Part shown: piece by piece, positions 1,694 to 54,531 of the stretch
Numbering within the stretch: position 1 is the stretch's first letter
Layout of the letters: every line of letters begins with the position of its first letter
DNA from: Povalibacter uvarum
Lineage (GTDB): Bacteria; Pseudomonadota; Gammaproteobacteria; Steroidobacterales; Steroidobacteraceae
DNA: 64,000 bases
Assembly (NCBI RefSeq): GCF_014202975.1
Contig: NZ_JACHHZ010000001.1
Coordinates: 248,001 to 312,000 of the forward strand
Direction: 5' to 3'
Made by a program: the position numbers and the translations under genes
The notes under the pieces: model-generated
What the model saw: only the letters and a program-made list of their open reading frames with translations
Databases searched by the model: none
What the model was told of the DNA's origin: nothing

Positions 1694-2410
1694 GTGACGA
1701 CACCTGCCCAGTCCAGATCGAGCCGCAAGCTGACATGGGGCCGTGTATTCGTTTACCGGATCGCGGTCGGCGTGGCGATGCTCATCCTGGAGGTGCTGTT
1801 CTTCACCTGCCGGTTCCGCTACGTCGGTATCGATCGTTTCCGCAAGCTGGTCGACGAGCACGGAGCTGTCATTCCCGTCTGCTGGCACCAGCATCTGCTG
1901 ATCTGCGCGCGCTTCCTGGTCAGCAAGCACATCTCACCGCCGCTCAAACCCGGCTTCATGATTTCGCCCTCCGTCGATGGCGAAGCGCCGACCTGGCTGG
2001 CCCAGGCGTATGGGGTTCACGTGGTGCGTGGATCGAGCACGTACTCAGGCATGCGCGCAGTACGCGGCATCAAGCAGGCTATCGAAAAGGAAGGCATCTC
2101 GGCGGCCGTCACGCCCGATGGCCCGAAGGGTCCGCGATTCAAGTTCAAGGCCGGTGCGATCTACACCGCGCAAATCGCACGCAGGCCAGTCATCCCGATC
2201 GCATTCGCGGCCAGGCCCGCCTGGGTGCTGAAGACCTGGGACAAATTCGTCATTCCGGTGCCGTTCGGCCGAATCTGTATTGCCGCGGGCGAGCCGTTCT
2301 ATCCCCAGCGCGACATGAGCGATGAGCAGATGGAAGAGGCGCAGCGGGAGATGGAGAGGCGGATGCTGGAAACGTATCGGATGGCGAAGGCGGAGCTGGA
2401 GAGGAAGTGA
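1694..2410 (+). CDS. DUF374 family lysophospholipid acyltransferase-like protein
   Basis: About 238 residues related to the DUF374 branch of the PlsC/LPLAT acyltransferase superfamily. An N-terminal membrane-anchoring helix (VYRIAVGVAMLILEVLFFTC) is followed by WHQHLL, the counterpart of the catalytic H-x4-D block, and then by a conserved VTPDGPKGPRFKFKAGAI segment typical of DUF374. Such proteins act at the inner membrane on lipid or lipid A precursors; the actual substrate is unknown. GTG 1694 was chosen because a GGGG stretch lies just upstream. The frame also opens at a TTG at 1676, very close to the tRNA end. It is convergent with the CDF exporter gene, with only 7 bases between the stops. 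Confidence 0.8.
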   Translation: MTTPAQSRSSRKLTWGRVFVYRIAVGVAMLILEVLFFTCRFRYVGIDRFRKLVDEHGAVIPVCWHQHLLICARFLVSKHISPPLKPGFMISPSVDGEAPTWLAQAYGVHVVRGSSTYSGMRAVRGIKQAIEKEGISAAVTPDGPKGPRFKFKAGAIYTAQIARRPVIPIAFAARPAWVLKTWDKFVIPVPFGRICIAAGEPFYPQRDMSDEQMEEAQREMERRMLETYRMAKAELERK

Positions 2411-6367: not shown

Positions 6368-9055
6368 ATGGCAATCGATCCGACAAAAGCTGTCGACCCG
6401 ATCCCCATGGCGGTCGGAGGCAATCTTTTCATCACGCGCCCGCCTGCGGGCCGGCGCTCGAAGATGGGTCTCGATGTGCTGCTGACGAAGGCAGCCGTCG
6501 ATTTCCAGAATCCCCCGGCCACCGGTGCGGAGGAGACGATTCGACAGAATCTGGACGCCGTCCGCGAAGCCGCCGGGCTCGACACGTTCTTCATTGCCCA
6601 CTTCGATCACCAGAACCAGGTCATCAACAAGGTGATCGGTTGCGCGAGCCTGTTCGCAACCTTCAATCCGGAAATTTTCAACGGCCAGATGCTGGACGAT
6701 CTGCCGTACCTGCGCGACCGGCTCGAGCACATCCGCGTCGTCGAGATTCGCGATACCGCCAACCCGCGTCGTGAACTGACTGCCGAGTCGAAGCGATTCG
6801 CCGGGTTGCAGGTGGGCGCGGTTCTGCTCGCCGGCTATGCGGTCGCCGGACGCATCACGGGATTCATCGCGATGTGTTCGACGCGTCCGCGCGAAAGCTG
6901 GGACGCGAACCTGCATCTCGCGCTGAAGCTGCTCGCGTCGAGCTATGCGAGCGGGCTCGAGCGCAAACAATTCCGCAGCCAGTTCGACGACCTGGAAGAA
7001 CGCAGCGAGCTCGCGCTGCACGGCGCCAATGACGGTCTCTGGGATTTCGATCTCGAGAAGACGACCACGTATTTCTCGCCGCGCTGGAAATCGATGCTGG
7101 GCTATTCGGACGAAGAGGTCGAACCGCTCGTCGACTGGCAGCAGCTGGTTCATCCCGAAGATCTGCCGCGGGTGCAGTCGGCATTGCGCGATCACCTGTC
7201 GGGCAAGGAGCCGATGTTCGAGAGCGTGCATCGCCTCAAGCATCGCGACGGCGTCTGGCTGTGGGTCGTCAGTCGCGCGAAGGCGAGAGTCGACGAGCAC
7301 GGTCGCACGCGTCGAATCGTCGGTGTCGATCTCGACGTGACTGAACGCAAGCTCTACGAAGAGGCGCTGTTCCGCGAGAAGGAGAGCGCCCAGATCACGT
7401 TGCAGTCGATCGGTGACGGCGTCATCACGACCGACTCGAACTGCCGTATCGAATATCTGAATCCGGTGGCCGAGCAGCTCACGGGCTGGCGTCTCGAGCA
7501 CGCCCAGGGTCGCGTGATCGATGAGATCTTCCGCAGTTTCCACGAGGAGACCTGCGAGCCGCTCGAGAATCCGCTGGCCGTTTCGATCCGACGCACCCGC
7601 GCCATCAAGTCTGTTCGTCCGACGCTGCTGATTCGCCGCGACGGCAACGAGCTCTACATCGAAAGCTGCGCCTCGCCGATCCGCGACGGTTCAGGTGTCA
7701 TCTGCGGCGGCGTGCTCGTGTTCCATGATGTGAGCGAAAGCCGCGAGCTCAATCGCAAGCTTTCCTATCACGCGAGCCACGACATCCTCACCGGTCTGGT
7801 GAATCGTCGCGAGTTCGAATCGCGGCTCGAGCGGGCGATGAAGAGTGCGCGGGCTCGCGAAGCTTCATTCGCGCTTTGCCACATCGACCTCGATCAGTTC
7901 AAGATCATCAACGACAACTGCGGTCACAGCGCCGGCGATGCGTTGCTCGGTCAGGTCGGCGCATTGCTCAAGTCGAAGATCCGCTGGCGCGATACCGTCG
8001 CGCGTCTCGGCGGCGATGAGTTCGGCGTGCTCCTCGAAAGCTGCTCGCTGGAAGAAGCGATCCGCAGCGCCGAGTCGTTGCGCGAGGCGATCCGCAACTA
8101 CAAGTTCGTCTGGGAGGAGCGCACGTTCCGGCTCGGTGCATCCATCGGAGTCGTGCCGCTGTCGCCTGAGAACGAGGACGTAGCGTCGCTGCTGTCCGCC
8201 GCTGACAGCGCTTGTGCTGCCGCAAAGGAAAGCGGCCGCAATCGCGTCTACAGCTTCCAGGAAAACGACATCGACCTGATGCGCCGCCGCCGCGAAATGC
8301 AATGGGCCGCGCGCATCAACAACGCACTCGAAGACAGCCGCTTCGAAATCTATCGCCAGGTGATCCAGCCACTGCAGGTTCCGGATCAGGGTCTGCACTA
8401 CGAACTGTTGCTGCGCATGCGCGATGAGGCGGGAAAGATCGTTGCACCCGACCAGTTCATCGCCGCAGCCGAGCGCTACGGCCTCACGCCGAACATCGAT
8501 CGCTGGATGATCGAGCACGCGTTGCGGTGGCTGGTCTCCGAAGCCGATGAGCGCGAGAAGCTCGCGATGTGCTCGATCAACCTCTCGGGCCAGAGTCTCG
8601 GCGACGACAAGTTCCTGCCGTTCGTGATCGATCATTTCCATCGCAGCGGCATCGATGCATCGAAGATCTGTTTCGAGATCACGGAGACCGCGGCGATCGC
8701 CAGCTTCTCGCAGGCCAACCGGTTCATTCATGCGCTGAAGGAGCTCGGTTGCCGCTTCGCCCTCGATGACTTCGGCACCGGCCTGTCGTCGTTCGGTTAC
8801 CTGAAGCACTTCCCCGTCGACTTCCTGAAAATCGATGGCAGTTTCGTGAAGGAAATCCTGCACGATCCCATCGATCGCGAAATGGTGCGGTCGATCAACG
8901 AAATCGGTCATCTCACCGGCAAGCAGACGATCGCCGAATTCGCCGAGAATGCCGAGATCATCGAGATGCTTCGCAGCCTCGGTGTCGACTACGCGCAGGG
9001 CTTCGGTATCGCCACGCCGCAGCGGGTCATGCGGGCGGCGGCGGGCGGCGGGTAA
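6368..9055 (+). CDS. GAF-PAS-PAS-GGDEF-EAL cyclic-di-GMP turnover protein
   Basis: About 895 residues. Domain order is a GAF-like sensor (about 30-205), PAS with PAC (215-330), a second PAS (345-460), GGDEF (465-630) and EAL (645-890). The cyclase motif is intact as RLGGDEFG near residue 547. An RxxD product-inhibition site (RWRD) lies five residues upstream. The EAL signature reads ELL in YELLLRM near 678. The other phosphodiesterase residues appear retained: SINLSG, FEITETA, LDDFGTG near 800, LKIDGSF, IAEFAEN and AQGFG. It has no transmembrane helix and is probably a cytosolic sensor. ATG 6368 was chosen, with in-frame ATGs at 6410 and 6465 and a TTG at 6293 as alternatives; none has a strong ribosome binding site. 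No c-di-GMP riboswitch was recognised in the upstream 295 bases. Confidence 0.88.
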   Translation: MAIDPTKAVDPIPMAVGGNLFITRPPAGRRSKMGLDVLLTKAAVDFQNPPATGAEETIRQNLDAVREAAGLDTFFIAHFDHQNQVINKVIGCASLFATFNPEIFNGQMLDDLPYLRDRLEHIRVVEIRDTANPRRELTAESKRFAGLQVGAVLLAGYAVAGRITGFIAMCSTRPRESWDANLHLALKLLASSYASGLERKQFRSQFDDLEERSELALHGANDGLWDFDLEKTTTYFSPRWKSMLGYSDEEVEPLVDWQQLVHPEDLPRVQSALRDHLSGKEPMFESVHRLKHRDGVWLWVVSRAKARVDEHGRTRRIVGVDLDVTERKLYEEALFREKESAQITLQSIGDGVITTDSNCRIEYLNPVAEQLTGWRLEHAQGRVIDEIFRSFHEETCEPLENPLAVSIRRTRAIKSVRPTLLIRRDGNELYIESCASPIRDGSGVICGGVLVFHDVSESRELNRKLSYHASHDILTGLVNRREFESRLERAMKSARAREASFALCHIDLDQFKIINDNCGHSAGDALLGQVGALLKSKIRWRDTVARLGGDEFGVLLESCSLEEAIRSAESLREAIRNYKFVWEERTFRLGASIGVVPLSPENEDVASLLSAADSACAAAKESGRNRVYSFQENDIDLMRRRREMQWAARINNALEDSRFEIYRQVIQPLQVPDQGLHYELLLRMRDEAGKIVAPDQFIAAAERYGLTPNIDRWMIEHALRWLVSEADEREKLAMCSINLSGQSLGDDKFLPFVIDHFHRSGIDASKICFEITETAAIASFSQANRFIHALKELGCRFALDDFGTGLSSFGYLKHFPVDFLKIDGSFVKEILHDPIDREMVRSINEIGHLTGKQTIAEFAENAEIIEMLRSLGVDYAQGFGIATPQRVMRAAAGGG

Positions 9056-44340: not shown

Positions 44341-45084
44341 TCACGCTGCCAGGCGGTCGGTTGCCTTTGCTTTGAGCGGCAGGTTGTACGTCACGGTTGC
44401 GCCGTAGGCATCCGGATCCTGCGGGTCTTGCCGGCGCTTGTCGAACACGAGCAGTCGCGTTCCGAGCTGGAAGCTCTCCTTCAGATCGTGACTGATCATG
44501 AAGACCGTCATCCGGTTCTGCGACCACAGGCGCAGGATGATCTCGTGCATGTCGGCGCGGATGCCGGGATCCAGTGCGCCGAACGGCTCATCGAGCAGCA
44601 GGATCTCAGGTTCGCAGATCACGGATTGGGCGATGGACAGGCGCTGCTGCATGCCGCCTGAGAGCTGCGAGGGATACTTGTCGCGCGCGGCGTAGAGGCC
44701 AATCGAATCGAGCAGCGCATTCGCCTTCTCCAGCGCTGTGCGACGCTTCGCTCCGAAGAGCCGACCGAGAAATCGCGACCCGGTGAACTCGAGGCCGAGC
44801 AGCAGGTTCTCGGTCACCGTCAGATGAGGAAAGAGGGAGTACCTCTGGAAGACGATGCCGCGATCCGGTCCCGGCTCGGGCGGTATGGGCTTGTCGTCGA
44901 TCAGCAGCTCGCCGCGCGTCGGCTTCTCGACTCCGAGCAGCAGTCGCAGGAACGTCGTCTTGCCGCAGCCCGATGCACCCACGATCGTGACGAATTCGCC
45001 GTCCTCGATCCGGAGGTTGAGGTTTTCGAGCACGACCTGCCGGCCGTACTCCTTCCACAATCGCTTGACCGTGACGCTCGCCAT
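44341..45084 (-). CDS. ABC transporter ATPase of the guanidine-riboswitch transporter
   Basis: A 247-residue ATPase of the nitrate/sulfonate/taurine (SsuB/TauB) class. Walker A is VGASGCGKTTFLRLLLG, the signature is YPSQLSGGMQQRLSIAQS, Walker B is ILLLDEPFGALDPG, and the H-loop is FMISHDLKES. Its start directly abuts the permease stop (0 bases between), so translation is probably coupled. It is the third gene of an operon headed by the guanidine-I riboswitch and solute-binding protein. The inferred role is energising uptake of guanidine or a related nitrogen compound for the divergent catabolic operon. Confidence 0.93.
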   Translation of the reverse strand: MASVTVKRLWKEYGRQVVLENLNLRIEDGEFVTIVGASGCGKTTFLRLLLGVEKPTRGELLIDDKPIPPEPGPDRGIVFQRYSLFPHLTVTENLLLGLEFTGSRFLGRLFGAKRRTALEKANALLDSIGLYAARDKYPSQLSGGMQQRLSIAQSVICEPEILLLDEPFGALDPGIRADMHEIILRLWSQNRMTVFMISHDLKESFQLGTRLLVFDKRRQDPQDPDAYGATVTYNLPLKAKATDRLAA

Positions 45085-45900
45085 TTATCTTTGCGACTCC
45101 GCCCAGGGAAACAGCCGTCGGCGCGCGATGCGCAGCATCCAGTCCATCAGGAACGCGAGCAGCGTGATCCAGAAGACGTAGGGCAGGATCACATCCATGG
45201 CGAGATAGCGGCGCACGAGGAAGATGCGATAGCCGAGCCCTTCGGTCGAAGCGATCGCTTCGGCCGCGATCAGGAACAGCCACGCGCAGCCGAGCTGCAG
45301 TCGCACTGCATCGATGAGTCGTGGCCACAATTGCGGAAGGATGATGCGTGTCGACAGCAGCCAGCTCGAAGCACCGAGCGTCTGTGCCTTGATCAACTGT
45401 TCGGTTGGCAGTTCGCCCGCTCGCAACGCGACATCACGCGCAATCACCGGCGTGACGCCGATGACGATGAGCGCGATCTTCGCCACTTCACCGAGTCCGA
45501 GAACGATGAACAGCACCGGCAATATCGCCAGCGGCGGAATCATCGATACGGCTGCAACGAACGGCGCAGCGAGCGCACGTATGTATGGAATCGCACCGAT
45601 CGTGAGGCCAAGGCCCAGGCCGATCGCTGCGCTGATCCCGAGCGCGACGACAATGCGCTTGAGGCTCGCCCACGTATCGACCCAGAGCAAGACCTCCCCG
45701 CTGCGTCGGTCCTCCTCGAACGCATAGGCGTGCACCGTATCCACGAGCGTGGCGACCGAAGGCAGCAGCTTGTCGTCAGGATTCGCCTCGAGCCGCGTAT
45801 TCGACCCGAACAGATAGGCGGCGATCAGAACGAGAAACGGCAGCACGGCGAGAAACGCCGCGCTGCCGCGTGGGGGGTGGAGGTTGATGAGGCGGGGCAT
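45085..45900 (-). CDS. ABC transporter permease of the guanidine-riboswitch transporter
   Basis: A 271-residue inner-membrane permease of the SsuC/TauC class, with about six helices. The EAA coupling loop is recognisable as AQTLGASSWLLSTRIILPQLWPRLIDAVRLQLG. The first periplasmic loop is long (about 35-80, NTRLEANPDDKLLPSVATLVDTV), as in the transporters associated with urea carboxylase-type genes. The start ATG is at 45900. A word-repeat hairpin separates it from the solute-binding protein gene. It functions with the ATPase at 44341-45084. Confidence 0.92.
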   Translation of the reverse strand: MPRLINLHPPRGSAAFLAVLPFLVLIAAYLFGSNTRLEANPDDKLLPSVATLVDTVHAYAFEEDRRSGEVLLWVDTWASLKRIVVALGISAAIGLGLGLTIGAIPYIRALAAPFVAAVSMIPPLAILPVLFIVLGLGEVAKIALIVIGVTPVIARDVALRAGELPTEQLIKAQTLGASSWLLSTRIILPQLWPRLIDAVRLQLGCAWLFLIAAEAIASTEGLGYRIFLVRRYLAMDVILPYVFWITLLAFLMDWMLRIARRRLFPWAESQR

Positions 45901-45902
45901 AA

Positions 45903-45983
45903 GAGGCTGTGAGCGGTGAGCTATGAGCCAGAGGCAGAGAAGAGGGTTCCGCTCTGGCTCGCGGCTCGTCGCTCGCAGCTTCC
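45903..45983. repeat. Word-repeat inverted repeat (GAGC type) inside the transporter operon
   Basis: The left arm (45903-45939) reads GAGGCTGTGAGCGGTGAGCT then ATGAGCCAGAGG. The right arm (about 45952-45983) reads CTCTGGCTCGCGGCTCGTCG then CTCGCAGC. They are imperfect reverse complements. The element lies between the 3' end of the solute-binding-protein gene and the permease start. There it could protect the upstream mRNA and raise binding-protein levels over permease, as REP hairpins do. Confidence 0.75.
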
Positions 45984-45994
45984 CCGCTTCCCGT

Positions 45995-47068
45995 TCACAG
46001 TTTCCCTTCGCTCGCCAATTTCACATACGTCGCATCGAAGCGCATCTTGATGTTCTTCGCGTTGCCGAGGGTCTTGCCGCCGGGGAACTCGATGCCGACG
46101 ACATCGACGGTCTTGGCGCCTTCGCCGAGCAGGCCGTGGTCGAAGGAAAATTTGCGGACGAGGTCCATCGTCGTCTGTACCTGTGGGCCGGTCACGAAGG
46201 AGAGCGATTCAGCGGGCGTCCAGAACATCCTGGTGGTTGCGAGCTGGCCGTTGAAGCCGGCGAGATCGGTGCCGGAGGCTTTCGCCATGTGGGCGAGAGC
46301 CTTTGGATCCTTCTTCGCCATCAGGGCGATGGTTTCGTACCAGGCGCCGACGAGTGCTTTCGCGAAGGCGGGGTTGGCCTTCAGCGTCGCGCTGTTCACG
46401 ACCATCAGGTCGATGATCTCGCCGGGGATCTTGCTCGAGTCGAAGACGAGCTGCGCGTCGGGCGACGCGAGGATCTCGCTGAGCTGGGGTTTCCACGTCA
46501 CCGTAGCCTTCGTGTCGGCCGCGGCATAGGCACCGACGATGTCGGCATCGGAGGTATTCACGACCTTGATGTCGCGTTCCTTGAGGCCGACAGTTTCGAG
46601 ACCGCGGGCGAGCAGGTAGTGGGAGACCGAAAGCTCGACCAGGTTGACGGGAAGCCCCTTGATGTCCGCGAGCTTCTTGCCCTTGCCCTTCACCACGACG
46701 CCGTCGTTGCCGTTCGAGAAGTCGCCGACGATGAGCGCGGTGGAGTCGACGCCGCCCGCTGACGGAATCGTCAGCATGTCCATGTTCGTCATCACGCAGG
46801 CATCGAAGCTGCCCGCCGTGTATTGATTGATCGACTCCACGTAGTCGTTGATCTGCGTGAGCTCGATCTTGATGCCGTACTTGTCGGCCCACTTCTTCAG
46901 GATGCCGCTCTCGGCCGCGTAGTCCCAGGGCATCCAGCCAACGTAGATGCTCCAGGCGACTTTGAATGACTTCTTCTCCGCGGCCGAAGCAGTGGGGGTG
47001 AACGTGGCGGCCAGAAGGGCGCAGACCACGATCGATGCGCGGGCCAGGGCTCTCAAGGACGAATGCAT
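45995..47068 (-). CDS. ABC transporter solute-binding protein, guanidine/urea type
   Basis: A 357-residue periplasmic binding protein with signal peptide (MHSSLRALARASIVVCALLAATFTPTASA). The mature part begins FKVAWSIYVGWMPWDYAAESGILKKWADKYGIKIELTQINDYVESINQYTAG. This is the hallmark of the 'putative urea ABC transporter substrate-binding protein' family (NMT1/SsuA fold) found next to urea-carboxylase-type genes. GAGGAG lies 8 bases before the ATG. It is the first gene behind the guanidine-I riboswitch, with a leader of about 170 bases between aptamer and start. Guanidine as ligand is inferred from the riboswitch and the divergent operon. Confidence 0.92.
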   Translation of the reverse strand: MHSSLRALARASIVVCALLAATFTPTASAAEKKSFKVAWSIYVGWMPWDYAAESGILKKWADKYGIKIELTQINDYVESINQYTAGSFDACVMTNMDMLTIPSAGGVDSTALIVGDFSNGNDGVVVKGKGKKLADIKGLPVNLVELSVSHYLLARGLETVGLKERDIKVVNTSDADIVGAYAAADTKATVTWKPQLSEILASPDAQLVFDSSKIPGEIIDLMVVNSATLKANPAFAKALVGAWYETIALMAKKDPKALAHMAKASGTDLAGFNGQLATTRMFWTPAESLSFVTGPQVQTTMDLVRKFSFDHGLLGEGAKTVDVVGIEFPGGKTLGNAKNIKMRFDATYVKLASEGKL

Positions 47069-47158
47069 GCGGCGACTCCTCGTTGTTTGCGGTCCAGTCA
47101 GGGGCCGACCGAAACGAAGTGATCGTTGCCGGTCGGACATCGCAGCACCGCAACTCGA

Positions 47159-47190
47159 GGATCGGTCGGTCCACGGGGATCGGTCGGTCC
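47159..47190. promoter_or_regulatory. Two direct copies of GGATCGGTCGGTCC in the transporter leader
   Basis: The 14-base word GGATCGGTCGGTCC occurs at 47159-47172 and again at 47177-47190, offset by 18 bases. It lies downstream of the riboswitch on the minus strand, within the leader of the solute-binding protein mRNA. It could be a protein operator, a site in the RNA, or part of the expression platform. I cannot distinguish these. Confidence 0.5.
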
Positions 47191-47216
47191 CGCACGCTGT
47201 CAGCGCCGCGTTCCAA

Positions 47217-47239
47217 GGGAGCCCAAGTCAAAGGCTCCC
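47217..47239 (-). promoter_or_regulatory. Stem-loop just 3' of the guanidine-I aptamer (possible expression platform)
   Basis: On the minus strand GGGAGCC, a 9-base loop and GGCTCCC form a 7-base-pair stem immediately after the aptamer's conserved CCCGGGAGG. It is followed by TTGGAAC rather than a long U run. It is a candidate terminator or alternative pairing partner in the riboswitch expression platform, but it is a weak terminator by sequence. Confidence 0.5.
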
Positions 47240-47240
47240 G

Positions 47241-47343
47241 ACCTCCCGGGCTTTTATCCCGCCGTGTATCCGTCAGCGATCGCTGCCCGGACTGCCTCTC
47301 TCGGACCAGCACCACGCACCGCTGCGCAGCCGGAACCCTAGAC
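47241..47343 (-). ncRNA. Guanidine-I (ykkC) riboswitch
   Basis: On the minus strand, the conserved guanidine-I aptamer elements appear in order. CTAGGGTTCCGGC comes first (from about 47343), then GCTGGTCCGAGAGAGGC, and after a variable arm ACGGCGGGATAAAAGCCCGG followed by GAGG (ending about 47241). These are the signature segments of the ykkC class that binds guanidine and turns genes on. It is oriented toward the solute-binding protein gene (start 47068) and should control the transporter operon. The divergent catabolic genes begin 330 bases away on the other strand and would not be in this transcript. Confidence 0.93.
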
Positions 47344-47380
47344 GCACATTGTTGTGGGAGGGGAAGTGCAAGGGACGTGC

Positions 47381-47604
47381 CGGAGGGAGCGACGAGCTGC
47401 GAGCGGCGAGCTGTGAGCCGGAAGGGCATTTGTGCGATCTCGTTCTGCTGCTTCGTGGGGCGAAGTCGATTGGAAGTGCTCGGGGATGGTGCGACCCGAA
47501 GCACGCGCACATGCACGATGCAACTTCTCGGCGCTGCTCCCGATGCAGCGTGCACCAACGTCTCTGCGTCTCCCTCCGGCTCATCGCTCGTCGCTCACCG
47601 CCCA
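47381..47604. repeat. Word-repeat arms (GAGC type) in the divergent guanidine intergenic region
   Basis: The left arm (47381-47424) reads CGGAGGGAGCGACGAGCTGC then GAGCGGCGAGCTGTGAGCCGG. The right arm (about 47570-47604) reads CTCCCTCCGGCTCATCGCTC then GTCGCTCACCGCCC. The two are imperfect reverse complements about 150 bases apart. This is the 604-base gap 47069-47672, which also holds the riboswitch, direct repeats and stem-loop. The DNA between the arms shows no gene. Promoters for both divergent operons should lie here but were not convincingly identified. Confidence 0.7.
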
Positions 47605-47672
47605 TTGCCCGTTTTGGCCCGTTCCTTGCTCCTCCTCCGTGACAACAAACTGATTCGAGGTCGTCTACATCA

Positions 47673-48398
47673 ATGGCGGAAGGCGCTCCTTACTGGATGC
47701 TCTGGGAGGAACACGTTGCTTCGGGCGCGCACTGGTCGGGCCTGTTGCGGCGGGGGACGACGCTGCGCCTGACGGATGTGGCGGGCGGTGCGAACGTATC
47801 TGCGTTGCTCTTCAACTACGACGATCGCCTCGAGCGTTACAACATGCCGGACACGCTCAAGGCGCAGCACACTGCTTATCTGACGTCTGGTTTCGTGTGC
47901 TACTCGGACATGGGGCGCGTGCTGTGTTCCATCACGGATGACACCTGCGGCTGGCATGACACGATCTGTGGTGTGACTTCGCCCGGCGATGTCGAGAAGA
48001 AGTACGGCGTGTCGCGCTACCAGGAGAGTCGCAACAACTGGTATCGCAGCGGCTACGAGAGCCTGCTCACTGAACTGGGCAAGTACGGCCTCGGCAAGCG
48101 CGACCTCAGCGCCAACATCAACTTCTTCAGCAAGGTGACCGTCGACGACGAAGGTCACCTGCATTACCAGTCCGGCAACTCGAAGGCCGGCAGCTACGTC
48201 GACCTGCGTTTCGAGATGAACGTGCTGCTGGTGCTTTCGACCTGCCAGCACCCTCTCGACCCGGCGACGACTTACCAGCCGCGGGAAATGCAGCTCACTG
48301 CGTGGCATTCGCGGCCGGCCCCGCGCAACGATCCTTGCCGGATGAAGTGCCCGGAGAACGAACGCGGGTTCAGGAATACGGAAGTATGGTTCCGATGA
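47673..48398 (+). CDS. DUF1989 protein UAAP1 family, carboxyguanidine deiminase subunit
   Basis: A 241-residue DUF1989 protein of the urea-amidolyase-associated protein 1 family. Conserved segments are LRLTDVAGGANVSALLFNYDDRLERYNMPDTLKAQHTAYL, DMGRVLCSITDDTCGWHDTICG and SANINFFSKV, with His/Cys residues likely to bind metal. Established work shows that the UAAP1/UAAP2 pair (CgdA/CgdB) hydrolyses carboxyguanidine to allophanate and ammonia. The second subunit gene follows after 15 bases. This is the first gene of the catabolic operon. I do not assign which of the pair is CgdA or CgdB. Confidence 0.92.
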   Translation: MAEGAPYWMLWEEHVASGAHWSGLLRRGTTLRLTDVAGGANVSALLFNYDDRLERYNMPDTLKAQHTAYLTSGFVCYSDMGRVLCSITDDTCGWHDTICGVTSPGDVEKKYGVSRYQESRNNWYRSGYESLLTELGKYGLGKRDLSANINFFSKVTVDDEGHLHYQSGNSKAGSYVDLRFEMNVLLVLSTCQHPLDPATTYQPREMQLTAWHSRPAPRNDPCRMKCPENERGFRNTEVWFR

Positions 48399-48413
48399 GT
48401 GACGTGAGTGCCC

Positions 48414-49064
48414 ATGCCCCTCGTTGAAAGCAAGCTCGATCCCGGTAATGCCATTCACCGCGTGGTCATCGCTGCCGGCGAGCCCTGGCTCGGCACCGTG
48501 AAGGCCGGGCAGTCCTTCCGCATTCTCGATCTCGAGGGCAATCAGGCTGTCGATACATTGTTCTATCGCTCGGGGACGCTCGAAGAACGTTACAGCGCGC
48601 AGGACACGATTCGCGCGCAGGGAAACATCTATCTCACGGCTGGCACGCCATTGTTGTCGAACGAAGGCAACACGATGCTGACGATCGTTGCCGACACCTG
48701 CGGCCGGCACGACACGCTCGGCGGCGCCTGTTCGGCAGAGAGCAACACGGTGCGGTATGCGCACGAGAAGCGGCACATGCACAGCTGTCGCGACAGCTTT
48801 CTCATCGCACTCGCTCGCTGGGGCTCGACGTTCGGCCGCGACTTCAGCAAACGCGACCTGTCGAGCAACGTGAACTTCTTCATGAATGTGCCCGTCACAC
48901 CCGCCGGCAAGCTCACCTTCGCCGACGGCATCTCGGGGCCGGGCCGGTACGTCGAGATGCGGGCGGAGATGGATGTCACGATCCTGATCTCGAATTGCCC
49001 GCAGCTGAACAATCCATGTAACGGATACAACCCGACGCCTGTGGAAGTGATGGTGTGGGATTGA
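48414..49064 (+). CDS. DUF1989 protein UAAP2 family, carboxyguanidine deiminase subunit
   Basis: A 216-residue paralogue of the preceding gene, in the UAAP2 family. It has [40 protein letters not shown], the metal-site block [21 protein letters not shown], and [12 protein letters not shown]. It is expected to form the heteromeric carboxyguanidine deiminase with the upstream protein. ATG 48414 was chosen; a GTG two codons upstream (48408) is also possible. The carboxylase gene starts 86 bases downstream on the same strand. Confidence 0.92.
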
Positions 49065-49150
49065 GGTGACGGGTCACTCCTCGCGGGACGACCCGCGAGC
49101 CGAACAAACAACGCCGGGACGACCCGGCACCTTGGGCCTCACGGTGCTCC

Positions 49151-52100
49151 ATGTTCGACAAGGTGCTGATCGCCAACCGCGGCGCAATCGCGTGTCGCAT
49201 TCTTCGCACGCTGAAAAAACTCCGGATCGGCTCGGTCGCCGTCTACTCCGATGCTGACCGGCATTCCATGCATGTGGCGCTGGCCGATGAAGCCGTGAGG
49301 CTCGGGCCGGCGCCGGCTGCGCAAAGTTATCTGGCACAGGATCTGATCATTGCAGCTGCGCGAGAGCGTGGTGCGCAGGCGATTCATCCGGGATATGGCT
49401 TTCTGAGCGAGAACGCCGCGTTTGCAGAGCGCTGCGAGGCGGCCGGGATCGCGTTCATCGGGCCGACACCGGGCCAGATGCGGGACTTCGGATTGAAGCA
49501 CACGGCCCGTGAGCTGGCGCTTCGTCACGAAGTGCCGCTGCTGCCGGGCAGTGGTCTTCTCGACGATATCGAGCATGCGCTGACAGAAGGGCGGCGCATT
49601 GGCTGGCCCGTGATGCTGAAGAGCACGGCGGGCGGCGGCGGCATCGGCATGCAGCTATGCCGTTCGGAGCAAGAACTGCGCGACGCATTCGATTCGGTCG
49701 AGCGGCTGGCGAGAAGCAATTTCAGCCAGGGCGGCGTCTTCCTGGAAAAGTACGTCGAGCGGGCGCGCCACATCGAAGTGCAGATCTTCGGCGACGGTCG
49801 CGGCAAGGTCGTGGCGCTCGGTGAGCGCGATTGCTCGGTGCAGCGTCGCAATCAGAAGGTGATCGAGGAGACACCGGCGCCGCATCTCAGTGAAGACGTC
49901 CGGTCGCAACTGTTGCGCAGTGCGCAGCGGCTCGGTGAGGCGATCGGCTATCGATCCGCCGGTACAGTCGAGTTCGTCTATGACGACACGTCGGGGCGGT
50001 TCTACTTCCTCGAAGTGAATACGCGGCTCCAGGTCGAGCATGGGGTGACCGAGCAGGTCACCGGCATCGATCTCGTCGAATGGATGATCCTCGTCGCCGC
50101 GAACGAGCCGCCCGACCTTTCGAGCCATGTTCACACACCGCGAGGACATTCGGTCCAGGTCCGGCTCTACGCGGAAGACCCCGTGCACAACTTCCGGCCT
50201 TCGAGCGGATTGCTGTCGCATGTGGAGTTGCCGCGCGACGCTCGCGTGGATTCGTGGATCGAAACGGGCACCGAGGTGCCGGCTCACTACGACCCGATGC
50301 TCGCGAAGATCATCGCCGATGGTCAGACGCGGGAGGAAGCGCTGGCGAACCTCGATCGTGCACTCTCACAGACGCAGGTGCACGGCATCGAGACCAATCA
50401 GGCCTATCTGCGTGCGATCGTGCACGACAGCGTGTTCGCCGAAGGCCGGCAGTTCACGCGCTATCTGTCGAACTTCAAATACCAGCCCGCCACTGTGGAA
50501 GTCGTTCAGCCCGGCACTCATTCGACGGTGCAGGATTTTCCGGGACGGATCGGTTACTGGGACATCGGCGTGCCCCCCTCGGGTCCGATGGATGATCTGG
50601 CCTTTCGCGTCGCGAATCGGCTGGTGGGCAACGAGGAACACGCCGCGGGCCTCGAGCTGACGGTGAGCGGACCGACGCTCCGGTTCAACGCGCCGACGGT
50701 GATTGCATTGACGGGCGCGAGAATGAAAGCCGATCTCAACGGTGCACCTGTCGAGTACTACCGGCCCGTCGCGATCGTGGCGGGCAGTACGCTGAAACTG
50801 CGCCAGATCACGGGCGGCGGTCAGAGAACGTACCTGGCCATTCGCGGTGGTTTCGATGTGCCGCCGTACATGGGAAGTCGGGCGACGTTCACTCTCGGGC
50901 AGTTTGGCGGGCACGCGGGCCGTGCCTTGCGCGCCGGTGACACATTGCGCATGGCGAACTTGCCGACGATTGACGCGAAGGCGGAAGTTTCAACCGACAT
51001 GGCGATGCACTACGGCTCCGATTGGGAGATCGGTGTGATGTACGGGCCGCATGCGGCGCCGGAATTCTTCACGCCGGCCGACATCCAGAGGTTCTTCGAC
51101 GCCGACTGGGAAGTCCATTACAACTCCAGTCGCACCGGTGTCCGGCTCATCGGTCCGAAGCCTCAGTGGGCGCGCAGCGACGGCGGCGAAGCAGGGCTGC
51201 ATCCCTCGAACATTCATGACAACGCGTACGCGATTGGTGCCATCGATTTCACCGGCGATATGCCTGTCATCCTCGGGCCGGACGGGCCGAGTCTGGGCGG
51301 ATTCGTGTGCCCCGCGACCATCGTGCGGGCGGAACTCTGGAAGGTCGGGCAGCTGCGGCCGGGCGATCGCGTTCGGTTCAAGCGCGTCTCAGTCGAACAG
51401 GCGACGCTGCTCGAGCGCGGCATGGAGGAGTCGATCGCAGCGCTGCATGGCCATCCGACCCTCGGCTCATCTGATGCGACAACGCCGTCCGCGATCCTCG
51501 CGGGCTCGCCGGCGCAGCCGGGCCCTGCGGTCTGCTACCGCCAGGCTGGCGACAAGTACCTGCTCGTGGAATACGGCGATCCGGTGCTCGATCTCGAATT
51601 GCGCTTCCGTGTGCATTCGTTGATGGAGTGGCTGCAACGCGAATGCGTGCGCGGTGTCCAGGAATTGACGCCGGGCATCCGATCGCTGCAGATCCACTAC
51701 GACAGTCGGGTGATCTCTCAGAAGGCGCTGGTCGATGTCCTGAAGCGCGGGGAGGCCGAGCTGCCCGGGGTCGACGATGTGGAGGTGCCGAGCCGCATCG
51801 TTCACCTGCCGCTGTCGTGGGACGATCCGGCAACGCGCCTCGCGATCGAAAAATACTCGCAGTCGGTTCGCAGGGACGCGCCTTGGTGTCCGAGCAATAT
51901 CGAGTTCATTCGCCGGATCAACGGACTCGATTCCATCGAGGATGTGCAGCGCATCGTGTTCGATGCCAGCTATCTCGTCATGGGACTGGGTGACGTCTAC
52001 CTCGGCGCTCCCGTGGCGACGCCGCTCGATCCGCGTCACCGGCTCGTTACGACGAAGTACAACCCCGCGCGAACATGGACACCCGAAAATGCTGTCGGTA

Positions 52101-52762
52101 TCGGCGGTGCGTACCTGTGCGTTTACGGCATGGAAGGGCCGGGCGGCTACCAGTTCGTCGGCCGAACCGTGCAGATGTGGAATCGCTATCGACAGACGCG
52201 TGACTTCACCGACGGTAAACAATGGCTGCTGAGATTCTTCGACCAGCTCAGGTTCTACCCGGTGAGCGCCGAGGAGCTGCTGCAGCTTCGGGAGGATTTC
52301 ATTCGCGGGCGATTCGAGCTGAAGGTCGAGCCCGCGACATTGCGGTTGTCCGAGTACCGTGACTTCCTCGCGGCCAACCGCGATTCCATTGCCGCCTTCA
52401 AGTCGCGACAGCAGGCGGCATTCGATGCCGAGCGCGAACGCTGGCGTGCGAATGGACAACTGACGTTCCACTCCGAAGCTCAGGCTGTATCGGAACGAGA
52501 AGAAGTGCAGGCGCTTCCCGAAGGCAGCGTTGCCGCGTCATCTCCGGTGACGGGCAGCGTCTGGAAGGTTGCCGTGAAGCCCGGGCAGGCGGTGGAAGAG
52601 GGCGAGGAACTGTTGATCGTAGAGGCGATGAAGATGGAGATCCCCATCGTTGCGGAATCTGCCGGCATCGTTGCCGAGCTGCGCTGTGAGGCGGGTAAAG
52701 CAGTCAACGCTGGCGACGTGCTCGTGGTGATGAAGGCAGAAGTCGCCGAGGTGGTGGCATGA
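49151..52762 (+). CDS. Guanidine carboxylase (urea carboxylase family), biotin-dependent
   Basis: A 1203-residue biotin carboxylase. The biotin carboxylase domain (1-450) has the ATP-grasp KSTAGGGGIGM and FLEVNTRLQVEHGVTE. A carboxyltransferase region (about 470-1080) of the urea-amidolyase KipA/KipI-like type includes TVQDFPGRIGYWDIGVPPSGPMDDLAFR and NSSRTGVRLIGPKPQWAR. The C-terminal biotin carrier domain has the biotinyl Lys in VEAMKMEIP (about 1160). Enzymes of this family linked to UAAP1/2 and guanidine-I riboswitches carboxylate guanidine with ATP and bicarbonate to carboxyguanidine, with urea as a poorer substrate. That context is fully present here. Substrate preference depends on active-site residues I cannot align by eye. 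The stop overlaps the atzF start by 4 bases. Confidence 0.93.
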   Translation: MFDKVLIANRGAIACRILRTLKKLRIGSVAVYSDADRHSMHVALADEAVRLGPAPAAQSYLAQDLIIAAARERGAQAIHPGYGFLSENAAFAERCEAAGIAFIGPTPGQMRDFGLKHTARELALRHEVPLLPGSGLLDDIEHALTEGRRIGWPVMLKSTAGGGGIGMQLCRSEQELRDAFDSVERLARSNFSQGGVFLEKYVERARHIEVQIFGDGRGKVVALGERDCSVQRRNQKVIEETPAPHLSEDVRSQLLRSAQRLGEAIGYRSAGTVEFVYDDTSGRFYFLEVNTRLQVEHGVTEQVTGIDLVEWMILVAANEPPDLSSHVHTPRGHSVQVRLYAEDPVHNFRPSSGLLSHVELPRDARVDSWIETGTEVPAHYDPMLAKIIADGQTREEALANLDRALSQTQVHGIETNQAYLRAIVHDSVFAEGRQFTRYLSNFKYQPATVEVVQPGTHSTVQDFPGRIGYWDIGVPPSGPMDDLAFRVANRLVGNEEHAAGLELTVSGPTLRFNAPTVIALTGARMKADLNGAPVEYYRPVAIVAGSTLKLRQITGGGQRTYLAIRGGFDVPPYMGSRATFTLGQFGGHAGRALRAGDTLRMANLPTIDAKAEVSTDMAMHYGSDWEIGVMYGPHAAPEFFTPADIQRFFDADWEVHYNSSRTGVRLIGPKPQWARSDGGEAGLHPSNIHDNAYAIGAIDFTGDMPVILGPDGPSLGGFVCPATIVRAELWKVGQLRPGDRVRFKRVSVEQATLLERGMEESIAALHGHPTLGSSDATTPSAILAGSPAQPGPAVCYRQAGDKYLLVEYGDPVLDLELRFRVHSLMEWLQRECVRGVQELTPGIRSLQIHYDSRVISQKALVDVLKRGEAELPGVDDVEVPSRIVHLPLSWDDPATRLAIEKYSQSVRRDAPWCPSNIEFIRRINGLDSIEDVQRIVFDASYLVMGLGDVYLGAPVATPLDPRHRLVTTKYNPARTWTPENAVGIGGAYLCVYGMEGPGGYQFVGRTVQMWNRYRQTRDFTDGKQWLLRFFDQLRFYPVSAEELLQLREDFIRGRFELKVEPATLRLSEYRDFLAANRDSIAAFKSRQQAAFDAERERWRANGQLTFHSEAQAVSEREEVQALPEGSVAASSPVTGSVWKVAVKPGQAVEEGEELLIVEAMKMEIPIVAESAGIVAELRCEAGKAVNAGDVLVVMKAEVAEVVA

Positions 52763-54531
52763 CCGCACTGACGATCGAATCGGTGCTCGACGGCTATCGC
52801 ACTGGGCGCTCAACCGTCGAGGCGATGATCGGTGCGCTCCTCGACCGGATCGACGCCGCGCCGGCGGGCAACGTGTGGATTCACCGGCTGGCGCGGGATC
52901 AGGTGATGGCGTATGCGGCACGGCTCCGGGAGAAGTCCATGGATGAGTTGCCGCTTTATGGTGTGCCGTTCGCGATCAAGGACAACATCGATCTTGCGGG
53001 TGTGCCGACGACCGCCGCGTGCTCTGAGTTCGCTTACGTCCCGACGCAATCCGCTTTCGTCGTCGAGCGATTGATCGCTGCCGGTGCGATCCCGATCGGA
53101 AAGACGAACCTCGATCAGTTCGCCACCGGGCTGGTTGGAACGCGATCACCGTTCGGCGCGTGCGAGAACAGCTTCGATTCGCGCTACATCTCCGGCGGGT
53201 CCAGCAGCGGGTCCGCGGTTGCCGTGGCGCGAGGATTCGTGAGCTTCGCGCTCGGCACGGATACCGCAGGCTCCGGAAGGGTGCCGGCTGCCTTCAACAA
53301 CATCGTGGGCCTGAAGCCATCCTGCGGCGCACTGAGCACGGCGGGTGTTGTGCCTGCCTGCCGATCGCTCGACTGCGTTTCCATCTTTTCGCTGAGCGCG
53401 GGCGATGCGCGGCGCGTGCTCGATGTCGCGCAGGGATTTGATGCAGCAGATGCTTATTCGCGAGACCTGCCGGCACGTGGGCTGCCTCACGCCCTGCGCA
53501 TCGGCATTCCACGTCGCGATCAACTGGAGTTCTTCGGCGATACTGAATACGCGGAGCTGTTTGGACGAGCGCACCGGCAGGCAGCGTCGATCGGCTGTAC
53601 GGTGGTCGAGCTCGACTTCCGGCCCTTCTTCGAAACCGCGCGACTTTTGTATGAAGGACCTTGGGTTGCCGAGCGCTTCGCGGCGATAGAGGAGTTCCTC
53701 GCGGCGCATCCGAAGGCACTGCATCCAGTCACAGCGTCGATCATCGGGGCGGGATCGCAGGCAACGGCGGCTGCCGCCTTCCGTGCCCAATATCGACTGA
53801 AAGCACTGCAGCGTGCAACCGCGCCCGTCTGGGAACAGGTGGATGCGTTGATGGTGCCGAGTGCGGGCACGATCTATCGGATCGCGGACGTTCTCGCCGA
53901 TCCCGTGACGCTGAACTCCAATCTCGGGCACTACACGAACTTCGTCAATCTGCTCGACCTCGCCGCGATTGCCGTGCCGGCGGGTTTTCGGAGCGACGGT
54001 CTGCCGTTCGGTGTGACGCTGATCGCTCCGGCAGGGACCGATAAGGCGCTGGTCGGCATCGGTGCGCGACTTCATGCGGTGAGTTCATCGCGACTGGGAA
54101 CCACGAATGATGCGGTCCCCTCACCGGTTGAACAGACCACGGCGTCGGGGTACGTGCACGTCGCTGTATGCGGTGCCCACATGAGCGGTCTGCCGCTGAA
54201 TCATCAACTGACCCAGCGAAAGGGATTCCTGGTGCGTGCCACACGAACCGCGCCGCGTTACCGGTTCTACGCGCTTCCCGGCGGGCCGCCACAGCGGCCA
54301 GGCTTGGTTCGAACGAACGAAGCAGGAGCAGCGATCGATGTCGAAGTGTGGGCAGTGCCTCAGGAGCATTTCGGGACCTTCGTCGCAGGCATTCCTTCAC
54401 CGCTCGGCATCGGCAAAGTGGAGCTGGAGGACGCCATCTCGTGCAGCGGCTTCGTCTGCGAAGCGTGGGCAATCGAGGGTGCCGAGGAGATCACTTCCTT
54501 GGGCAACTGGCGTGCGTACCTCAGGAAATAG
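52759..54531 (+). CDS. atzF: Allophanate hydrolase
   Basis: A 590-residue amidase-signature enzyme that hydrolyses allophanate to ammonia and CO2. The Ser-cisSer-Lys triad is visible: Lys in GVPFAIKDNIDLAG (about residue 74), the cis-Ser in ISGGSSSGSAVAVARG (about 147), and the nucleophile in GTDTAGSGRVPAAFNN (about 171). The C-terminal domain of AtzF/DUR1,2 type (about 475-590, VAVCGAHMSGLPLNHQL ... LPGGPPQRPGLVR ... GIGKVELEDAISCSGFVCE) is present. The ATGA overlap with the carboxylase gene indicates translational coupling. It completes the guanidine to allophanate to ammonia pathway. Confidence 0.96.
   Translation: MTALTIESVLDGYRTGRSTVEAMIGALLDRIDAAPAGNVWIHRLARDQVMAYAARLREKSMDELPLYGVPFAIKDNIDLAGVPTTAACSEFAYVPTQSAFVVERLIAAGAIPIGKTNLDQFATGLVGTRSPFGACENSFDSRYISGGSSSGSAVAVARGFVSFALGTDTAGSGRVPAAFNNIVGLKPSCGALSTAGVVPACRSLDCVSIFSLSAGDARRVLDVAQGFDAADAYSRDLPARGLPHALRIGIPRRDQLEFFGDTEYAELFGRAHRQAASIGCTVVELDFRPFFETARLLYEGPWVAERFAAIEEFLAAHPKALHPVTASIIGAGSQATAAAAFRAQYRLKALQRATAPVWEQVDALMVPSAGTIYRIADVLADPVTLNSNLGHYTNFVNLLDLAAIAVPAGFRSDGLPFGVTLIAPAGTDKALVGIGARLHAVSSSRLGTTNDAVPSPVEQTTASGYVHVAVCGAHMSGLPLNHQLTQRKGFLVRATRTAPRYRFYALPGGPPQRPGLVRTNEAGAAIDVEVWAVPQEHFGTFVAGIPSPLGIGKVELEDAISCSGFVCEAWAIEGAEEITSLGNWRAYLRK

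Follow-up and report, generated by a model that had tools for sequence, protein, structure and literature searches.

The window analysed here, a stretch of 64,000 nucleotides from Povalibacter uvarum (Steroidobacteraceae), contains a guanidine-I riboswitch aptamer ahead of an ABC importer operon, and the question that this locus raises is whether guanidine is the only signal that governs its genes. The riboswitches, the genes around them and the promoter-like elements ahead of them (Table 1) are considered in turn, in the window and in related loci.

Two guanidine riboswitches in a divergent locus

Judged by its sequence, the aptamer is an ordinary member of the guanidine-I (RF00442) class. 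The first-pass annotation had recognized it by three conserved ykkC/guanidine-I blocks, all of which indeed follow one another on the minus strand, and the covariance model bears this out: in a cmscan search of the whole window, RF00442 matches over its full length (model positions 1-107 of 107, E 7.1e-12) with a score above the cut-off, and no difference from the class was found in the aptamer itself. The position given at first (47241-47343) was right but the extent was too short, with the full aptamer reaching 9 nt further at the 5' end. The assignment to guanidine-I and not to the ppGpp or PRPP subtypes, also made at first, is backed both by this score and by the nucleotide that marks the subtype, an A in guanidine-I and a pyrimidine in the ppGpp and PRPP subtypes (PMC6031431). 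In the CCGAGAG motif, an A follows each of the two candidate Gs, the placement of residue 46 being the mapping of the present analysis. Across the 6.3-Mb genome, no other guanidine-I match reaches E 0.001, and no guanidine-III was found. Two further matches from the Rfam scan of the window, to sR2 and MIR533, lie below the cut-off and were set aside; the MIR533 match overlaps a dispersed repeat.

The aptamer is oriented as originally described, facing the gene for the solute-binding protein, the next gene downstream. The reading frame of this gene is open from 47140, with the likely start at the ATG at 47068 (preceded by AGGAG and followed by a signal-peptide-like N-terminus), about 170 nt past the aptamer. 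A single-domain response regulator gene (PF00072; 43737-44204, minus strand) lies on the same strand after the ATPase gene, and its product is kept in this place in the same-genus loci L052-L055, L058 and L059, at 84-94% identity.

Divergent from the importer, the gene order is cgdA-cgdB-[guanidine-II]-carboxylase-allophanate hydrolase. The initial interpretation of the locus, although supported, was incomplete, having missed this degradation operon along with the second riboswitch and the sigma-54 elements discussed below. The guanidine-II riboswitch consists of two hairpins with ACGA loops and scores over the cut-off, and the Rfam scan detected no further riboswitch before cgdA at E values up to 1. 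The second guanidine-II of the genome (L051; G000:C4:368954-368997) has no sigma-54 element and lies ahead of an SMR-type exporter gene.

In the carboxylase, Asp699 aligns with position 1330 of the K. lactis enzyme and the Asp of the GLGD motif with position 1584 (the latter hand-counted on the alignment); Asp at the equivalents of both positions is reported as the signature of guanidine carboxylases (PMC11410670). Because a guanidine carboxylase with both Asp residues and a pair of DUF1989 proteins in the cgdA-cgdB order lie beside it, the ABC transporter is, with support, better named a guanidine importer than a nitrate/sulfonate/urea transporter, in line with the first-pass annotation, its presumed substrate being read from these neighbours.

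The locus also contains two kinds of repeats. A dispersed short repeat, GGCTCATCGCTCGTCGCTC, is present in 87 copies in the genome at no more than 2 mismatches (0 for a reversed-pattern control); inverted copies lie just inside the two divergent sigma-54 elements (47387-47422 and 47573-47601), and an inverted pair separates the permease and binding-protein genes (45903-45982). The other, the 17-nt repeat CGAGGATCGGTCGGTCC, forms two adjoining copies, 94% alike, in the leader between the aptamer and the binding-protein gene (47156-47190); a stretch near 47105 is complementary to it, and the repeat could be part of an expression platform.

Table 1. Features of the guanidine locus, in window coordinates.
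Feature	Position	Strand	Evidence
ABC importer ATPase	44341..45084	-	PF00005
ABC importer permease	45085..45900	-	PF00528
ABC importer solute-binding protein	45995..47068	-	TIGR03427, 544.9 bits, cut-off 333.9
Guanidine-I riboswitch aptamer	47241..47352	-	RF00442, 76.7 bits, gathering score 63
Sigma-54 (-24/-12) promoter-like element CGGCACGTCCCTTGCA	47367..47382	-	11/12 consensus positions; conserved in relatives
Sigma-54 promoter-like element TGGCCCGTTCCTTGCT of cgdA	47615..47630	+	11/12 consensus positions
cgdA, carboxyguanidine deiminase subunit (DUF1989)	47673..48398	+	PF09347, 211.4 bits; conserved order cgdA-cgdB-carboxylase
cgdB, carboxyguanidine deiminase subunit (DUF1989)	48408..49064	+	PF09347, 225.1 bits
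Guanidine-II (mini-ykkC) riboswitch, between cgdB and guanidine carboxylase	49080..49127	+	RF01068, 50.5 bits, gathering score 32
Possible alternative helix GGCACC (49126-49131) / GGUGCU (49143-49148)	49126..49148	+	Weak; reached by 27/100 shuffles
Guanidine carboxylase (usual annotation urea carboxylase)	49151..52762	+	TIGR02712, 1929.8 bits
Allophanate hydrolase, gene overlaps carboxylase	52759..54531	+	TIGR02713, 812 bits

Sigma-54 promoter-like elements at the locus and in a wider survey

Sigma-54 promoters, with GG at -24 and GC at -12, were scored against the consensus TGGCACG-N4-TTGCW. CGGCACGTCCCTTGCA, ahead of the guanidine-I aptamer, and TGGCCCGTTCCTTGCT, ahead of cgdA, are the sole sites in the window, with both strands searched, to match 11 of the 12 positions. 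With the predicted starts set 12 nt beyond the -12 GC, the importer transcript would begin near 47356, 4 nt ahead of the aptamer, and the cgdA transcript near 47641; the predicted cgdA leader, only about 32 nt long, thus leaves no room for a riboswitch. No sigma-70 promoter-like sites were found at 46900-49250.

The placement of these elements is conserved in relatives. GGCAY-N5-TTGCA stands ahead of all 17 Steroidobacteraceae aptamers read, with the sigma-54-like 16-mers (16 distinct) beginning 37-42 nt ahead of TAGGG, and the cgdA 16-mer begins 56-59 nt ahead of the start codon in all 7 same-genus loci in which the upstream region is readable. The cgdA element was not found in L070, L071 and L076; there, the divergent gene encodes a different binding protein. 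Allophanate hydrolase is encoded elsewhere in the genome, not beside the carboxylase, in G001, G011 and G003 (L227, L228 and L229), and there a sigma-54-like site (9, 9 and 10 of 12, respectively) precedes a possible start codon by 54-56 nt, the spacing seen at cgdA.

Beyond these loci, 94 of 123 distinct guanidine-I sites have a sigma-54 score of at least 10/12 within 150 nt upstream, compared with 125 of 6150 random windows (drawn from the same loci, so that some contain true sites), 32 of 6150 shuffles and 0 of 123 antisense controls. The phylum-sample loci alone yield 43 of 54 (54 sites counted, 58 matches listed). The sites were found by regular expression, with weak aptamers such as L041 (33.3 bits) falling outside the count, and sites with an identical core, or whose upstream sequence is shorter than 150 nt, are left out of the set of 123 (e.g. 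L055, score 11, and L059). The guanidine-I sites are related by descent and comprise 81 distinct 16-mers at varied distances.

A sigma-54 score of at least 9 is reached by none of the 9 guanidine-I sites before AA_permease-type genes, as against 100 of the 114 other sites (the 14 that fall below include the Billgrantia and Halomonas loci L118 and L147). Eight of these nine permease-type sites are in Nitrosomonas or Nitrosospira, which are ammonia oxidizers. The contrast is not simply that between assimilation and its absence, because the ammonia-oxidizer loci with AA_permease-type genes also hold cgdAB and the carboxylase; what differs between these loci and the others seems to be the need for nitrogen control. 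The element is also missing from all 10 guanidine-II sites flagged as lying before SMR exporters; among those without the exporter flag, L091, L169 and L200 reach 10 or 11. In L169 and L200, the sigma-54-like element upstream of guanidine-II scores 10/12; the guanidine-II of L200 precedes a 2-oxoglutarate/Fe(II) oxygenase gene, and a similar protein is encoded in L169.

Guanidine-I behind a sigma-54 element also occurs before TonB-dependent receptor genes, in G133, G166, G019 and G176. The aptamers lie at 8198-8305 (plus strand) in L064, 8296-8403 (minus) in L065 and 1771-1881 (minus) in L066, and also in L067, the receptor being assigned by Pfam in L064 and L065 and by similarity in L066 and L067. 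An M20 peptidase gene follows in L064 and L065; further genes encode a HpaB-type hydroxylase and a flavin reductase in L064, and a RidA-like protein, DUF1028 and a cytosine/purine-type permease in L065. Guanidine, or some guanidino compound, might cross the outer membrane through these receptors.

Nitrogen status as a candidate second input

The genome has rpoN (465 bits) and a true ntrC (692.9 bits, over the cut-off), as well as several long matches to the ntrC model that fall under the cut-off and resemble other activators. Candidate NtrC sites were scored against the NtrC-site consensus. Palindromes of this kind scoring at least 11 are found in 43 of 123 stretches upstream of the surveyed aptamers, compared with 49 of 1230 shuffles. 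The window itself has no outstanding NtrC site; the best one (10/14, at 47477) is to be read against a background, on one strand of the 64 kb, of 35 sites at 10 and 6 at 11.

Published data on gene regulation favour a role of sigma-54 and NtrC. COG3665 is, we assume, the DUF1989 family. In a study of sigma-54 regulons, 102 COG3665 genes are reported as regulated, 59% of them named urea carboxylase (PMC12316311). In an ntrC mutant of Burkholderia cenocepacia H111 under nitrogen limitation, the urea carboxylase-related genes I35_7283-7286 are down, with a log2 value of -6.0 for the carboxylase, and sigma-54 also regulates 95% of the top 150 genes (PMC5491218). A locus of another B. cenocepacia strain (L226), likened to I35_7283-7286 by name and not by sequence, was taken from a plasmid search with the carboxylase, among the matches listed (20 of 510 records). 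It carries two guanidine-I aptamers (76.7 and 76.6 bits), with a sigma-54 element at 11/12 ahead of each of them, and one more site of this kind lies on the minus strand.

The reading that we consider probable is that the window's locus is a two-key system for scavenging guanidine nitrogen, which would require both nitrogen limitation, acting through NtrC and sigma-54, and guanidine. When nitrogen runs short, sigma-54 RNA polymerase, acting with an enhancer-binding protein that is most likely NtrC, would start both divergent transcripts, one for the importer and the other for cgdA-cgdB-carboxylase-allophanate hydrolase. Guanidine would be the second key: the importer transcript, starting a few nucleotides before guanidine-I, would be productive only with guanidine bound, and guanidine-II would permit translation of the carboxylase, and probably of the overlapping allophanate hydrolase too, only with guanidine present. 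The cgdAB genes, on the second transcript, would be under no riboswitch.

It has been proposed that guanidine-I acts transcriptionally and guanidine-II translationally (PMC12508155, PMC12186494). The window's guanidine-I aptamer is followed by a hairpin (GGGAGCCT/GGGCTCCC) without a T-run, and no convincing terminator was found after it; in the relatives L052 and L054, the hairpin after guanidine-I has a T-rich tail, and terminator-like features follow 36 of 123 guanidine-I sites, compared with 34 of 615 shuffles. The ribosome site of the importer is predicted to be unpaired at 0.11 with the aptamer and at 0.03 without it, opposite to what a masking model would give, and across 11 leaders (L059 left out as a duplicate core; in L060, the site taken is the aptamer's own GGGAG) its accessibility shows no consistent change. 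At guanidine-II, the possible alternative helix would mask the region just ahead of the carboxylase ATG; the helix is absent from the minimum-energy fold, in which both aptamer hairpins stay intact. The alternative-stem score of 29 sequences, by a scoring unfair to those with short spacers, has a mean of 9.1, barely higher than the 7.6 (sd 6.3) of shuffles; the helix occurs in Steroidobacteraceae in three sequence forms (GGCACC/GGTGCT, AACGCC/GGCGTT and GCGCAG/CTGCGC), with weak support.

It is quite improbable that only guanidine matters, with the riboswitches as the sole control and the GGCAY-N5-TTGC motifs as chance occurrences or relics of shared ancestry. Riboswitches are indeed the control of guanidine operons as described (PMC12186494), and the relatedness of the rows means that the counts overstate independence, but chance or ancestry would hardly produce elements before 94 of the 123 sites when about 2% of random windows and no antisense control score as high, nor the 81 distinct 16-mers at varied distances, nor the absence of elements before the 9 permease-type and 10 exporter sites; moreover, the published dependence on ntrC of a like cluster in Burkholderia (PMC5491218) argues for a second input. 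This input would not be general nitrogen status if sigma-54 does control the locus but answers to an activator other than NtrC, an option suggested by the sub-cut-off matches that resemble other activators and by the lack of a significant NtrC site in the window. The true ntrC in the genome, the enrichment of NtrC-like palindromes across the wider set and the Burkholderia mutant data (PMC5491218) make this unlikely.

Doubt might also fall on the ligand, in that the importer and aptamer could be meant for urea or for a guanidino compound other than guanidine, such as methylguanidine. The name of TIGR03427 is putative urea ABC transporter substrate-binding protein, the binding protein is without a close solved structure, and a guanidine-II riboswitch of Vreelandella boliviensis does not tell guanidine from methylguanidine (PMC12508155). 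We give this little credence, given that methylguanidine is not bound by the guanidine-I riboswitch of V. boliviensis (PMC12508155) and that the window's carboxylase has the guanidine signature.

The two-key reading may extend well beyond the window. It is fairly likely that the guanidine-I riboswitches for import and assimilation in Pseudomonadota mostly supply the second input of a two-input gate, the first being a sigma-54/NtrC promoter tens of nucleotides upstream, as distinct from the riboswitches of exporters or of ammonia oxidizers, and that Steroidobacteraceae have rewired this gate, with import left to one switch class and carboxylation to the other on divergent transcripts, the relocated allophanate hydrolase keeping a sigma-54-like element and TonB-dependent receptor operons having acquired a guanidine-I aptamer as well. 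If most assimilation riboswitches do stand behind a nitrogen-status promoter, the riboswitch is one of two inputs. Such an arrangement would explain how an importer for a toxic compound is avoided unless nitrogen is needed, and the type of promoter would separate assimilation from detoxification.

Distribution and comparison with known systems

Among 150 genomes of Steroidobacteraceae, guanidine-I is present in 18, including P. uvarum (17 over the cut-off), and guanidine-II in 24, of which 18 have it between cgdB and the carboxylase (the G104 contig breaks off shortly past the carboxylase start). The divergent importer with an over-cut-off guanidine-I, on the same contig as guanidine-II, is found in 11 of the 150; in G163, the order is likewise divergent, and guanidine-I scores only 33.3 bits. 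Loci of named genomes were fetched by CgdB (the best 80 of at least 542 relatives, on at least 595 stretches), with the switches found by regular expression. In 18 of these best 80, a same-strand guanidine-I stands upstream and guanidine-II follows cgdB (the L112 contig stops short of the carboxylase). The divergent order is seen in 2, both from Steroidobacter relatives, and in 3 from Paraburkholderia (L088-L090) the order is divergent with guanidine-I on both sides.

The pair of switches as such is not new, since two-switch operons are already in print: both classes in one collinear operon have been published for V. boliviensis (PMC12508155) and for enterobacteria (PMC12186494). The published descriptions consulted do not include the variant seen here, in which the locus is split divergently and guanidine-I does not extend to cgdAB. 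This split is a natural experiment on which steps need a guanidine gate, with import and carboxylation presumably gated and the deiminase not. The coupling of the two-riboswitch variant to nitrogen-status promoters is well supported, and has gone unremarked in the open-licence literature searched, where no paper was found to link guanidine riboswitches to sigma-54, RpoN or NtrC; the parts consulted of an expression study of a two-riboswitch operon contain no mention of NtrC or sigma-54 (PMC12508155).

Among known systems, the B. cenocepacia locus L226 resembles the window in having a binding protein divergent from cgdA-cgdB-carboxylase and a sigma-54 element on both sides, and differs in having guanidine-I on both sides, while guanidine-II was not found there. 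Raoultella terrigena, Erwinia rhapontici and Klebsiella michiganensis share with the window the association of guanidine-I with the importer and of guanidine-II with the carboxylase and hydrolase; their deiminase genes, unlike those of the window, are under guanidine-I (PMC12186494). Vreelandella boliviensis shares the pathway genes, the guanidine-I at the head and the guanidine-II between cgdB and the carboxylase, but there a single operon, with mgdH/mgdL, is under both switches, whereas the window has a divergent importer, cgdAB beyond guanidine-I and a sigma-54 element of its own for each transcript (PMC12508155).
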